Source: Stereum hirsutum FP-91666 SS1
Taxonomy: Eukaryota > Basidiomycota > Agaricomycetes > Russulales > Stereaceae
Reading direction: 5' to 3'
Assembly: GCF_000264905.1 (NCBI RefSeq)
Contig: NW_006763133.1
Location: 3,295,152 to 3,359,151, forward strand
Length of the DNA stretch: 64,000 nt
A program made the position numbers and the translations under genes. Under the pieces are notes generated by a model. It was given only the letters and a program-made list of their open reading frames with translations, was not told where the DNA came from and did no database searches. This document shows, one piece after another, positions 51,610 to 63,413 of the stretch. The stretch's first letter is position 1. Each line of letters begins with the position of its first letter.

Positions 51610-53701
51610 TCAATCGAGTTCGTTCAATGCCCTGCTCGCGAGCTTCTGGAGAGCGACGAGGGTAGCGGTGCTGCAGTAGGAAGATATCATCAGCATCTAG
51701 GATGAGTGATACAATGGGAGGAAGAAGCTTTGGAGACATACTCGACATCACCGTAGTCTACGGAGCGGCGCCTGGATTGAAGAGATGTCAGAAGTCGCGC
51801 CGAAAGTGTTGCTACTACAGACACGTACGAAGAAGAGGGGGCGGCCGATCCCTCGATCCCTGGAAGAGAGGTAGTCCCAATCCTAAGGTGGGGGAGGATA
51901 AGGCCGTTCAAGGTGTCTTCGTCGATATCCCTCTTCGAAGATGGGTCGAACAACGCCTCGACTCCGGAAGAAGCTGCCAAACCGGTGAGAGTTCCAAGTA
52001 AACCCTTAGTGATGGGACTGAGATTTAATGGCGCCCTCTCGTCGATCTCCCTCTTGGAAGACGGGTCCAACAATCCCTCGACTCCAGAAGAAGCAGTAAG
52101 GCCGGTGAGAGTCCCAAGGATGCCCTTGGTAATCGGGCTGAGGTTCAGAGGCGCCCTCTCGTCGATCTCCCTCTTCGAGCTGGATCCTCCAAAGGCGCTC
52201 TCGATAGCATCCCCGGCAGAAACGACACCGCCAGTGACAGCACCACCAATAGCGCCGTTCTTGAGTACAGTGCCGATATCGTCTTCCGTGGCACCGAGTA
52301 CCTTTCCGAGGGCACTACCGATGCTGCGGATGTCTATATCTCTCTTGGAGTTAGCTGCATTCTCGGCGGCATCTCCAGCGGAGACGACCCCGCCAGTGAC
52401 GGCACCACCGATAGCGCCATTCTTCAAGACGGTACCGATATCATCTTCCGTGGCACCGAGAAGCTTTCCGAGAGCACTTCCGAGACTGCGAGCATCAAAG
52501 TCCCTGTGTAACCGGACACGGGTCAGCATCTGATACATCCGAGAGAGAATACTTTCGTGCAGATGTGATGGACATACATAAGCTCACGTCTGCTAGCAGG
52601 AGTCGCAGCAGGCGCGGCAGCGCTCGAAGAATCGCTGCCACCGAGGACATCTCCAAGGGCGGTAGTCCCAGCACCAGCGGCTATACCGAGACCCAGCTTC
52701 TTGAGGAGGGGTACGATTTCAGATCCCAATCCACGAGCCTCGAATTCACTAGATGGGCAGAACGGTGAGGAAGTCATACGTTCTTGGCGTAGATGAAGCA
52801 CATACGTCAAGTCACGCTTGCTCGAAGAGCTGTCGCTGCCGCTGACGGCGTCACCGAGGGCAGTAGTCCCAGCACCAGCAGCGATACCGAGGCCCAATTT
52901 CTTGAGGAGGGGGACAATCTCAGAAGAGAATCCGCGGGCCTCAAACTCTCTGTATAGCGAGATATAATCGTAAGCAAGACCTCATCTCGGAGACGGGCCA
53001 AAAAATACTCACTCGAGCTCACGCTTGCTGGTGCCAGTAGCGGACGGTGCGGCAGCAGAGGAGCTGTCACTACCGCCGAGTGCGTCACCAAGGGCAGTGG
53101 TCCCGGCTCCAGCAGCTATACCGAGGCCCAACTTCTTGAGGATGGAAGTGATCTCGGAAGAGAGGGCACGAGCATCAATATCCCTGAGGACGAGTGAGTT
53201 GTTCGAGACGATTGGTCCGGGGCCTTCCGCGATGGGGAGCTCGTGGAGGAGGTCGGCGAGGTCCCGTTGAAAGAGGGTAGAATTGATGACGGCTGGTCCA
53301 TGACCTTCCTCGAGCTTCAGCTTCATGAGAAGGTCGGCAAGACTCGTCGAGATTCTGTTCTAAATGTGAGAAAAATCTATACGCATGGATAGAAGCTATG
53401 ATGCTCACGAAGGCGAGGCGGTATCGTCACGCTTGGAGGCTGGCGCGGTGCTGGAGTCGGAGCTACCGCCGAGGGCGTCACCAAGTGCGGTGACACCAGC
53501 ACCTGCAGCAGCACCTAAACCCAACTTCTTGAGAAGTGGGCCAAGCTCAGATGAAAGAGAGCGAGAATCGAAGTCCCTGGTGCTATGTCCCGATGAGTTT
53601 CTGACGGAGAACTTGATAAAAGAAAGGGCTGACCCAAGAGGAGCGGCTGACGCCGTGGAGGCGGCAATGGTGAGAGCGAGGAGAACAGATGAGGAGTGCA
53701 T
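51610..53701 (-). CDS. Secreted Kex2-type repeat peptide precursor
   Basis: Eight exons: 53701..53634, 53576..53409, 53354..53013, 52949..52806, 52748..52578, 52503..51829, 51771..51742, 51670..51610, 552 residues in frame. A signal peptide (about 1-20, ending ASAA) is followed by tandem modules, each closed by a dibasic site: KR at 71-72, 189-190, 237-238, RR at 294-295, KR at 351-352, 408-409, 448-449, 488-489, RR at 524-525. Module A (four copies) contains LLKKLGLGIAAGAGTTALGD. Module B (two copies) contains LGATEDDIGTVLKNGAIGG. Module C (two 40-residue copies) contains APLNLSPITKG. Nearly every new segment starts with an acidic pair (DD, EL, DL, DID, EID). This is the architecture of fungal Kex2-processed repeat proteins. 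All internal exons are multiples of three bounded by phase-2 introns. Confidence 0.87.
51829..53576 (-). repeat. Tandem precursor modules (A x4, B x2, C x2)
   Basis: Module A exons at 53576..53409, 53354..53013, 52949..52806 and 52748..52578. Modules B and C are within exon 52503..51829. The two C copies differ at only a few positions over 120 bases, and the two B copies are similarly close. Confidence 0.9.
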
Positions 53702-61040: not shown

Positions 61041-62185
61041 TCAGAATGTCATGACGAACAGAAGCCCGGCGACGAGGAAGAGAGGAGTGCTGAGGATGGC
61101 TGTGCTTTGCGCTCCGCTGGACGAGGTACTGGCGGTCGAGGACGAAGCGCTGCCAGTGGAAGTGCCGCTTCCGGAGGAACCGGAAGAGGCGGCGGCAGCG
61201 AGGGTGGAGGTGACGACGGCGGAGGTGGCGGAGACGGAGGCCGTGGCCGTGCCTTCTTCAACTTGGATGTACGTCCCCTGCGAGACCTCGATAAGCGAGT
61301 GAGACTATGAAGAGGGAAGGAAAAAACATACGGCGATGGGAGAGCCGAGGTTGCTGGTCTATATAGATTGAGATATTGATTAATTGAGATGATAAACAGG
61401 ATTAGGGGCGAGAAGATACGTGCCGAGAGGTAGTCAGTCAGGTTGAAGACCGAAACGCCTACGTTGGCCGAAGAGAGGTCGGAGGGAGGGCTGAAGTTGT
61501 CGCCTTGGGTAAGGAGGAGGATCACATAACTTTCAAAAAATATGAGCATACTAAACAGGACAAGATCGAAGGTAGAATGACAGCATACCGGTGGGCACCT
61601 GAGCCCGAAGCGGGGCCCGGACCAGCGTAGTCCGTGACAGCGGTAGCACCATCCGTCGAAAGTGTGTACGGAGCAGAGTCACCTACAATGTCAAACAAGA
61701 CAAATGAGCGATGTCAAGCATTGAGGAATTGATGAGGAACATACCAGAGAGGGAAGCGCCGTTGACGAGCCAGTGGCGGGTCTGCCCTGCCGACTCGTCT
61801 GTGCCGACGATGTCAGCGTCAGCCATGACGACGGTGTACTTCGAGGAGGTCAGGTCGGTGATTGAGCTATTGGCGGGGGTGATAGTGATGCCAGGCGCGT
61901 TTGCGACCTCTGCATATGCACGTCAGTAAACGTACCGCAATGGTCAAGATAATACGCACGATCTTTGGACAACAACTGGCCGGGCGAGATGGCGCCGACT
62001 GAGTCGTACGTCAAGTTCAGGATGCTAGACGGGTCAAAGGTCGCAAGGAGGGAGGGGACGAGGCCAGCATTCGTGAAATGAGCCTCGATGGCCTCAATCT
62101 GGAGCGTGCCATCGCTCGAATTGGACTGAGCGGCGACGAAGGAGGCTGAGGCGAGAGAAAGAGCGAGCGTGAGGGCGGAGAACAT
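61041..62185 (-). CDS. Secreted PEBP-like protein with probable GPI anchor signal
   Basis: Exons: 62185..61960, 61909..61745, 61682..61589, 61529..61424, 61358..61332, 61277..61041, 284 residues in frame. A signal peptide covers about 1-19. The body matches the phosphatidylethanolamine-binding protein fold: YTVVMADADIVGTDES, TRHWLVNG (the HWxxxN ligand strand), DYAGPGPASGSGAHRYVILL (the GPxPxxGxHRY strand), and DYLSTSNLGSPIAGTYIQV. Then a Ser/Thr/Ala-rich stalk and a hydrophobic end FLVAGLLFVMTF typical of a GPI attachment signal. The intron at 61423..61359 has a GC donor. Ligand unknown. Confidence 0.87.
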
Positions 62186-63413
62186 CGTGAGGATTGAAAG
62201 AGCGAAGGGAGCAAAGATGAAAGAGGAAGAGTTGATGGTGATGGTCAACGAGAAAGCGGGCTTGGCCTCGCCTTGTTGCTCGCCCCCGTTTTGTTGTGGG
62301 CGCCTGGCTATTTTGGGGTTCATGCCCGAGTAATCCAAGCCTACCTTTCGTTCATCTTGCATCCCCGTAGTCCCATAATTGCCCGGATATAGTTGCACGA
62401 CACTGGTCTATAAAGTGTAAGTTGTATCTTTATTTGTTGTAAACCCTGTTCAAACGTGGGGCAGCAAGGGGTTCGCGAGGGAGCTTCAGCCAAGAAACGC
62501 CAAGCCATACTCATACGTACCATCAAACGCCATCGCCTTCCGATCCTAACAACACCAAACATCCCATTCTCACGCGAATATTCGATACTGGACCCATCCT
62601 TGATGTCGTTCTGAACCTTAGTCGTATGTCTTTCTTTCTCACTCGGGCGCGGTGGAGCTAACTGCGGCGATTATGACATTGGACTTTGACGTTCAGTCTT
62701 TCAGGATTTTTTTGGCGTGTGCCAAACAACGCCACTCTGATTGACTTCGCAAACCCTTTCTGGATGTGCAAATGCCTACGCAGCGCCTTCGAAGTGTCGT
62801 AAATGCTTCGTCGACGCTTGTTTTCTACTGGATCGTGGTTATGTTTGCCCACCCCCGGCCCTATTTGGCACACATGAAGACTATGAGGGCCGTCTATCGT
62901 TCTGAAGACAGCTGCCATCACAGAAGCGGAATGCACAGCACATTCGTGGACCGCAATGCGTGCCAGTCAACACTCTTCTTTTTTGAACGTGTTACCTTTG
63001 TTAGCACAACCGTACCCCCCACGGTGGACTGCGATCGTGATTGGTCCGGTCGGAGAGCGGTAGCTCATTATCCAGGACACCAAAATGCTGCGTTTCATGC
63101 ACGGCTCTTACGGCTTTGCGCCCGGTTGATATCTGGGCACCAATTGGTATACTCGGTTCCCAAGCTAGCTCGAACGATGAAGCTCTATCTCTACTGTATA
63201 TCGATACGGGTGTAAGGGGGCCCTATATTGAGAGTCATCGTGGCGGCGATCTAGGGCGTCGATAACTTTAACCTTCAAACCGTGGGTGCGCTGAAGGAGG
63301 ACAGTATATAAAGTCGAGCCCACGCTATAGTTTAATCTCTTGCAGCTTAATCTCCCATATCACCTTCCCGTGAATATTGGCATCGTCGGAGAGATATACT
63401 CTTTGCTCCTACC
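62186..63413. other. Intergenic, no gene seen except promoter of the last gene
   Basis: Includes a TATA box near 63305. Unassigned frames around 62766-63215 have no signature. Confidence 0.5.
63305..63313 (+). promoter_or_regulatory. TATA box of the last gene
   Basis: tatataaag lies about 105 bases upstream of ATG 63414, a usual fungal spacing. Confidence 0.6.

Follow-up and report, generated by a model that had tools for sequence, protein, structure and literature searches.

The locus considered here raises the question of what a repeat-built protein with a signal-peptide-like start and many dibasic sites may be cut into, and what its products may do for the fungus. It lies on the minus strand of a window of 64,000 nucleotides from Stereum hirsutum FP-91666 SS1 (contig NW_006763133.1, positions 3,295,152 to 3,359,151), and positions below are those of this window unless a contig is named. 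Reading from the ATG at 53701 to the stop codon ending at 51610 on the minus strand, the removal of seven GT..AG introns (57, 54, 63, 57, 74, 57 and 71 nt in order) exactly reproduced the 552-residue preprotein that the first-pass annotation had proposed. Introns 2, 3, 5 and 7 are forced because in-frame stops appear without them, and introns 1, 4 and 6, which are 57 nt each and open in frame, are supported by splice signals and by relatives. Retention of the latter three (53577–53633, 52749–52805 and 51772–51828) would keep the frame and alter the peptides made. As all seven introns are in phase 2, each internal exon is divisible by three (168, 342, 144, 171, 675 and 30 nt for exons 2–7). Uniform phase 2 and multiple-of-three internal exons over 51610–53701 are what growth by exon duplication is expected to leave. 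The protein contains zero cysteines, and exactly nine KR/RR sites, the number claimed earlier, were counted behind the signal-peptide-like start, which was judged by eye; they start at residues 71, 189, 237, 294, 351, 408, 448, 488 and 524. A similar start is found in many relatives, with MHSS/MHS.. beginnings and A-AP[LIV] at the equivalent place.

Profile segmentation of the protein gave the series A D D A A A B B C C T T (Table 1). The modules described before, namely four glycine-rich ones, two of a second kind and two nearly identical 40-residue units, were all recovered, and the count of three module types in series is probably too low since the D pair (residues 80–136) and the tail module T bring the kinds to five, D and T with weaker profile support. 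One A module each is encoded by exons 2, 4 and 5, exon 3 carries the D pair with A2, and exon 6 the B and C modules. The score of the D1/D2 pair was reached in 0 of 5000 shuffles, and a D profile from which the focal rows had been left out reached 4.7 bits at focal residues 96–103 (maximum 3.0 in 300 shuffles). The internal repeat of D is clear, with a weak link to the GP-containing modules seen in Auriscalpium and Rickenella. A T profile built without the focal rows matched residues 536–552, that is T2, at 13.5 bits (maximum 5.6 in 300 shuffles) and did not recover T1, which had itself been a seed; the tail module may therefore repeat within the protein, T2 being supported and T1 doubtful. 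The A, B and C cores are 33–50 residues long with a net charge of -1 to -3, GRAVY of 0.34–0.60 and 12–24% glycine; they have no cysteine, no Tyr or Trp and at most one aromatic residue. A common origin of A, B and C was not established by profile–profile comparison, which gave probabilities of 18% for A–B (0/100 column shuffles as high), 38% over 11 columns only for A–C (1/100) and 1% for B–C (7/100).

Table 1. Predicted gene, exons and product modules, in window positions.
Feature	Position	Strand	Remarks
Precursor gene, 552 residues	51610..53701	minus	8 exons, introns all GT..AG and phase 2; predicted model
Exons	53701-53634, 53576-53409, 53354-53013, 52949-52806, 52748-52578, 52503-51829, 51771-51742, 51670-51610	minus	
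Signal-peptide-like start	53642..53701	minus	residues about 1-20, ..STASAA then PLG; judged by eye
Module A1 core	53435..53560	minus	residues 29-70, then KR at 71-72; profile segmentation
Module D1	53264..53353	minus	residues 80-109, ends LFQR; has GHGP and NST sequon
Module D2	53183..53263	minus	residues 110-136, ends LVLR; has GPGP
Module A2 core	53027..53167	minus	residues 142-188, then KR
Module A3 core	52820..52933	minus	residues 199-236, then KR
Module A4 core	52592..52732	minus	residues 247-293, then RR
Module B1 core	52347..52487	minus	residues 304-350, then KR; dN/dS vs B2 0.065
Module B2 core	52176..52325	minus	residues 358-407, then KR
Module C1 core	52056..52154	minus	residues 415-447, then KR; dN/dS vs C2 0.063
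Module C2 core	51936..52034	minus	residues 455-487, then KR
Module T1, doubtful tail-type repeat	51771..51929	minus	residues 490-523, split by intron 6, then RR
Module T2	51631..51764	minus	residues 526-546, split by intron 7, ends LASR
C-terminal hexapeptide ALNELD	51613..51630	minus	residues 547-552

The copies within the gene were compared codon by codon. The dS between copies of A, B and C was 0.78–1.91, which is near saturation, and the dN/dS was 0.07–0.19 for A, 0.065 for B and 0.063 for C (0.06–0.19 over the three), with the D pair looser at 0.32. Changes at codon positions 1/2/3 numbered 4/2/20 between B1 and B2, 4/1/18 between C1 and C2, and 4/2/18 between A3 and A4. High dS together with low dN/dS and the third-position bias indicates a translated gene of which the peptide sequences have been kept, and this pattern speaks against a pseudogene, against a frame error and against a tandem artefact of recent origin. 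When, over 17 proteins, the nearest copy of each module from a multi-copy protein was sought, it was found in the same protein for 22 of 23 A, 18 of 26 B and 20 of 26 C modules, which suggests partial homogenisation of the copies by concerted evolution.

Relatives were found in the Russulales, to which the nearest named ones belong (Auriscalpium vulgare, Artomyces pyxidatus, Gloeopeniophorella convolvens and Bondarzewia mesenterica) and elsewhere in the Agaricomycetes, in Punctularia strigosozonata (Corticiales) and, with five proteins, Rickenella mellea (Hymenochaetales). The gene belongs to an uncharacterised family of Kex2-processed repeat proteins found in at least three orders of Agaricomycetes; this breadth is a lower bound, because each protein-collection search scored the ∼8,000 candidates sharing the most words. 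The relatives retain the signal-peptide-like start, the dibasic sites and, except in Rickenella, the module order. The order A to B to C is never reversed in 10 of the 12 proteins counted, which were taken as full-length (the focal one and the Russulales proteins P0002–P0007 and P0009–P0013, leaving out P0019, P0024 and the unnamed proteins other than the focal one), and the two exceptions, Artomyces P0006 (ABCABCABC) and Gloeopeniophorella P0010 (ABABC), repeat the cycle in the same order. The Punctularia protein reads A A B T C C. In Rickenella, the matches of the five proteins are weaker and their order is mixed, so the A-B-C order is not a strict requirement. Two database entries, P0008, almost identical to the exon 6 region of the window, and P0001, a sister sequence, look like conceptual translations that read through introns; in P0001 both flanks of intron 4 are retained, with much lower likeness across the intron. 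Auriscalpium P0003, P0004, P0005 and P0007 share one contig size (42,179) and Rickenella P0017, P0020 and P0021 another (2,920,446), with mostly neighbouring locus tags in both, and tandem gene clusters are therefore likely in these two fungi. Besides the gene itself, no second copy was seen among the best candidates of six-frame searches in its own genome; one match on C9 (E 3.94) was taken as chance. A distant metagenomic protein, P0029, has a similar layout (RR, acidic spacer, LExR, then ...KIMxKLFGN.. repeats) and matched none of the three core profiles (A, B, C); it possibly represents another family that uses the same cleavage code.

The cleavage code was examined through the arginines. 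In 18 proteins, the focal one and 17 named ones, 184 of 351 arginines lie in KR/RR and a further 143 show an L, I, V, F, M or A at P4, which leaves 24. The counts leave out P0001, P0008, P0014, P0016 and P0018, which appear to be intron read-throughs or fragments, as well as P0019 (partial), P0024 (atypical) and P0025–P0029 (unnamed). With the first 20 residues omitted, Kex2-type motifs hold 327 of 350 arginines against a mean of 48% and a maximum of 55% in 500 shuffles, a contrast whose p-values are overstated because the proteins are related and several come from one species; with one protein per species the count was 141 of 146. As controls, lysine stood in matching contexts in 135 of 317 cases in the same protein set, and four neighbouring ORFs of the window had 52 of their 103 arginines in Kex2-type motifs. 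Over 3276 residues of module cores there are 2 R and 176 K, a figure that is partly circular since core boundaries were drawn at sites, which does not apply to the test on all arginines. Among the 166 non-dibasic arginines, 143 have one of LIVFMA at P4 (39% expected), and P3 is D in 25 and E in 44.

The first-pass annotation had most cleaved pieces starting with an acidic pair. It was right as to acidity, as eight of the nine pieces that follow a dibasic site begin with D or E, and not as to the pair, as only one has adjacent acidic residues. The commonest boundary is Ser, then K/R-R, then E/D, then L/I, with an arginine shortly ahead of the core. In the focal protein, an acidic spacer ending in [I/F]xxR precedes six of the eight A, B and C cores (8 residues ahead of A3, A4 and B1; 5 ahead of B2, C1 and C2), and A1, after the signal peptide, and A2, after D2, have a single-arginine motif alone (FDSR or IDAR) directly ahead. 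The acidic start is probably not the mature peptide end and would belong to a spacer that is taken off at a second Kex2-type site with a single arginine ([L/I/F]xxR). This reading draws on the arginine pattern, on the reported preference of Kex2 for an aliphatic P4 and its tolerance of a variable P2 (PMC8528282) and on the account of C. cinerea KEPs, which when expressed in Pichia gave products apparently cut after single arginines (PMC9769878). Asp at P3 is described as unfavourable to Kex2 (PMC8528282), which counts against six of the eight focal pre-core sites, where P3 is D (FDSR, IDAR, FDAR, IDIR and IDER twice); it is E in the other two. About 0.46 Mb away on the same contig (C3:2885323-2886575) there is a kexin-like candidate with matches to subtilase and the P-domain. 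There is good support for reading the protein as a secreted precursor with cleavage at dibasic sites, since start, sites and, outside Rickenella, order are kept in relatives and arginine is almost confined to Kex2-type motifs, from which we infer the processing. Unconserved dibasic sites in orthologues had been named as evidence that would tell against it, and the sites were found to be conserved in relatives.

The 552-residue protein had no match in Pfam, nor as a whole in the PDB by sequence; single cores searched against the PDB matched once at E 1.7, once at E 0.72 and, for one core, not at all, and both matches were taken as chance. Pfam matches on 14 A3 members were taken as noise: DUF7464 on 4/14 (best E 4.3e-6), DUF5899 on 3/14, and the remainder on one member each, including bCoV_lipid_BD at 8.5e-7. 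For A3 member 1, both matches were under the curated cut-off, and cut-offs for the other members were not given. In an AlphaFold2 model of exon 6 the cores are drawn as helices at a mean pLDDT of 52.7, a low confidence at which helical cores are only hinted at. Of ten neighbouring ORFs scanned with Pfam, five matched (CBF/Mak21, COQ7 twice, RRM, and an F-box-like domain just below cut-off) and five did not, and no biosynthetic cluster is apparent among them. The open frame 61850–62407 on the minus strand contains the signal-peptide-like stretch MFSALTLALSLASASFVAAQ, has no Pfam match and is possibly another secreted protein. Five scattered HxxHC words, a motif known in the context of UstYa, were seen in the six frames of the window and taken as chance.

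By its layout the protein resembles the KEPs (Le Marquer 2019, Umemura 2020, Vogt 2022), which have a signal peptide, where the present protein has a signal-peptide-like start, share the repeats separated by KR/RR and are widespread in fungi including Agaricomycetes. The present family is set apart by its module kinds, probably five and mostly in a fixed order, by an LxxR site proposed as a second cut before each core, by a conserved C-terminal hexapeptide, and by module size, 33–50 residues, whereas a class of 9–24 residues is described as the most abundant in Dikarya (PMC6339444). The KEP criterion as given by Umemura asks for at least three tandem repeats of at least eight residues between Kex2 sites, none >100 (PMC7329392). 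When the layout was compared with this wording, rather than run through the published pipeline, the four A modules agreed with it: A3 and A4 lie directly between dibasic sites, A1 between the signal peptide and KR, and A2 shares with D1 and D2 a piece of >100 residues that dibasic sites delimit. Several repeat types per KEP were already noted by Umemura, whose type S-8 comprises 5 KEPs of Rickenella (PMC7329392); as five Rickenella members were also found here, S-8 may be the present family. No earlier description of the module set, the LxxR spacer and the C-terminal motif was found in the accessible parts of the literature, supplementary KEP lists aside, and these features would make a new family within this known kind. 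A search on Auriscalpium vulgare and Kex2 returned no paper, and among the papers listed for Kex2 repeat secreted peptides none names Russulales.

What is seen in the sequence is a series of modules A, D, B, C and T with serine-containing linkers ending in KR/RR. We propose, at a probability of about one half, that the gene encodes a secreted prepro-protein of the KEP kind from which kexin, cutting at KR/RR and at single arginines, frees cores for assembly at the hyphal surface. Cleavage after KR/RR would be by a kexin in the Golgi, and cleavage after the single arginine by this enzyme or a related one, leaving freed cores of ∼33–50 residues that begin with S, G or A and not with an acidic residue; trimming of the Kex1 type may come next. 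About a dozen small peptides of several kinds seem to come from one precursor. With less certainty, the destination of the cysteine-free, glycine/alanine/leucine-rich cores would be the hyphal wall or surface, where they would assemble like the Ustilago Rep1 peptides. The Rep1 of Ustilago maydis is described as having 12 amphipathic repeats, cut by Kex2 to 10 peptides of 35–53 residues and one of 228, which form amyloid-like surface fibrils, and Hum3 as having 17 amphipathic repeats of 31–36 residues (PMC4617103). Rep1 is thus like the present protein in layout and peptide size (33–50 against 35–53 residues), with no sequence kinship detected; no Ustilago protein stood among the matches of the protein-collection searches, which scored candidates sharing words with the query and involved no direct comparison with Rep1. 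Hydrophobins too would be comparable, as small amphipathic secreted products, should the surface role hold. They carry eight conserved cysteines, whereas the focal precursor has none and lacks a Pfam match. A six-frame whole-genome search with the hydrophobin profile PF01185 gave 0 matches and, as it lacked a positive control, no conclusion is drawn from it.

As to function, our best guess ranks repellent-like surface peptides first and membrane-active peptides next. In the second case, which we consider possible if somewhat unlikely, processing would be the same and the cores would act as membrane-active or antimicrobial peptides against bacteria, fungi or small animals. The glycine-rich amphipathic cores, mainly A and B, do carry small-xxx-small patterns (counted without a chance control), and the presence of several family members in Auriscalpium and Rickenella fits biotic interaction. 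The cores are, however, net acidic (-1 to -3), unlike most antimicrobial peptides, which are cationic. Candida Ece1, with its signal peptide and seven KR motifs, is described as likewise yielding several peptides from one dibasic-site precursor (PMC5784256), a likeness of layout, and the present modules differ in recurring in copies. In C. cinerea, six kep knockouts had no phenotype in axenic culture and the authors favour a role of KEP peptides in biotic interaction, which tells against the surface reading; the KEP peptides tested are reported to be without antibacterial activity, which tells against the membrane-active one (PMC9769878); their kinship to the present family was not compared.

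A bolder reading holds that the precursor is combinatorial and conserved in mushroom-forming fungi, with a KR/RR-then-LxxR code and arginine excluded from the peptides, with A, B and C released at a fixed ratio per molecule and co-assembling into one surface or membrane structure, and with the hexapeptide as a sorting tail or a separate signal; taken as a whole, this appears distinctly unlikely. The C-terminal hexapeptide itself appears better kept than the modules. The proteins end in [ND][DE]LD in 22 of 25 cases, focal included, across three orders (P0001, P0008, P0014, P0016 and P0018 left out), the exceptions being P0010, P0024 and P0029. The tail has an S[FLIY][ND][DE]LD-like form, with S at -6 in 19 of the 22 and F, L, Y or I at -5, and the focal form is ALNELD. 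An arginine stands 6–8 residues from the end in 21 of the 22 (all except P0021), in KR or LIVFMAxxR context in 16. This end may serve as a sorting tail or be released as a free hexapeptide, and these same counts could be taken for a signalling precursor in which modules A–C are scaffolds and the hexapeptide or the tail module is the signal. We hold this to be quite improbable, because the terminal motif could equally be a sorting tail, the long modules are themselves under purifying selection, and the Ste13 signature XA or XP, which follows the dibasic site in alpha-pheromone-like KEPs, was found after 0 of the 9 focal sites.

It is more improbable still that the product is an uncut, repeat-rich wall protein in which KR/RR and LxxR are incidental: Rickenella P0017 and P0021 do carry the database name 'Cell wall protein', and cleavage is so far read from sequence, but arginine is nearly confined to Kex2-type motifs and the sites flank modules in relatives. 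The chance that this is the precursor of a cyclised ribosomal peptide of the dikaritin type is close to nil. The Kex2-bounded repeats are the layout described for ustiloxin-type precursors and, among the five Rickenella KEPs of type S-8, one has a DUF3328 gene in its vicinity (PMC7329392), if S-8 is this family, but the genome has at least 30 UstYa (DUF3328) matches with none on the focal contig, C3, among the 30 scored, and the cores of 33–50 residues are without Tyr, Trp and Cys.

Agaricomycete KEPs have so far been known from surveys and a few detected peptides, with functions mostly unknown. Since the modules described here are recognisable in several genera, orthologous peptides can be predicted, synthesised and searched for by mass spectrometry. 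The arginine pattern amounts to a testable cleavage code and, if the LxxR cuts are true, surveys based on dibasic sites only misplace the peptide ends, while the C-terminal hexapeptide offers a specific and cheap target. If the cores are surface-active, the family would represent a non-hydrophobin route to surface coating in mushroom-forming fungi.
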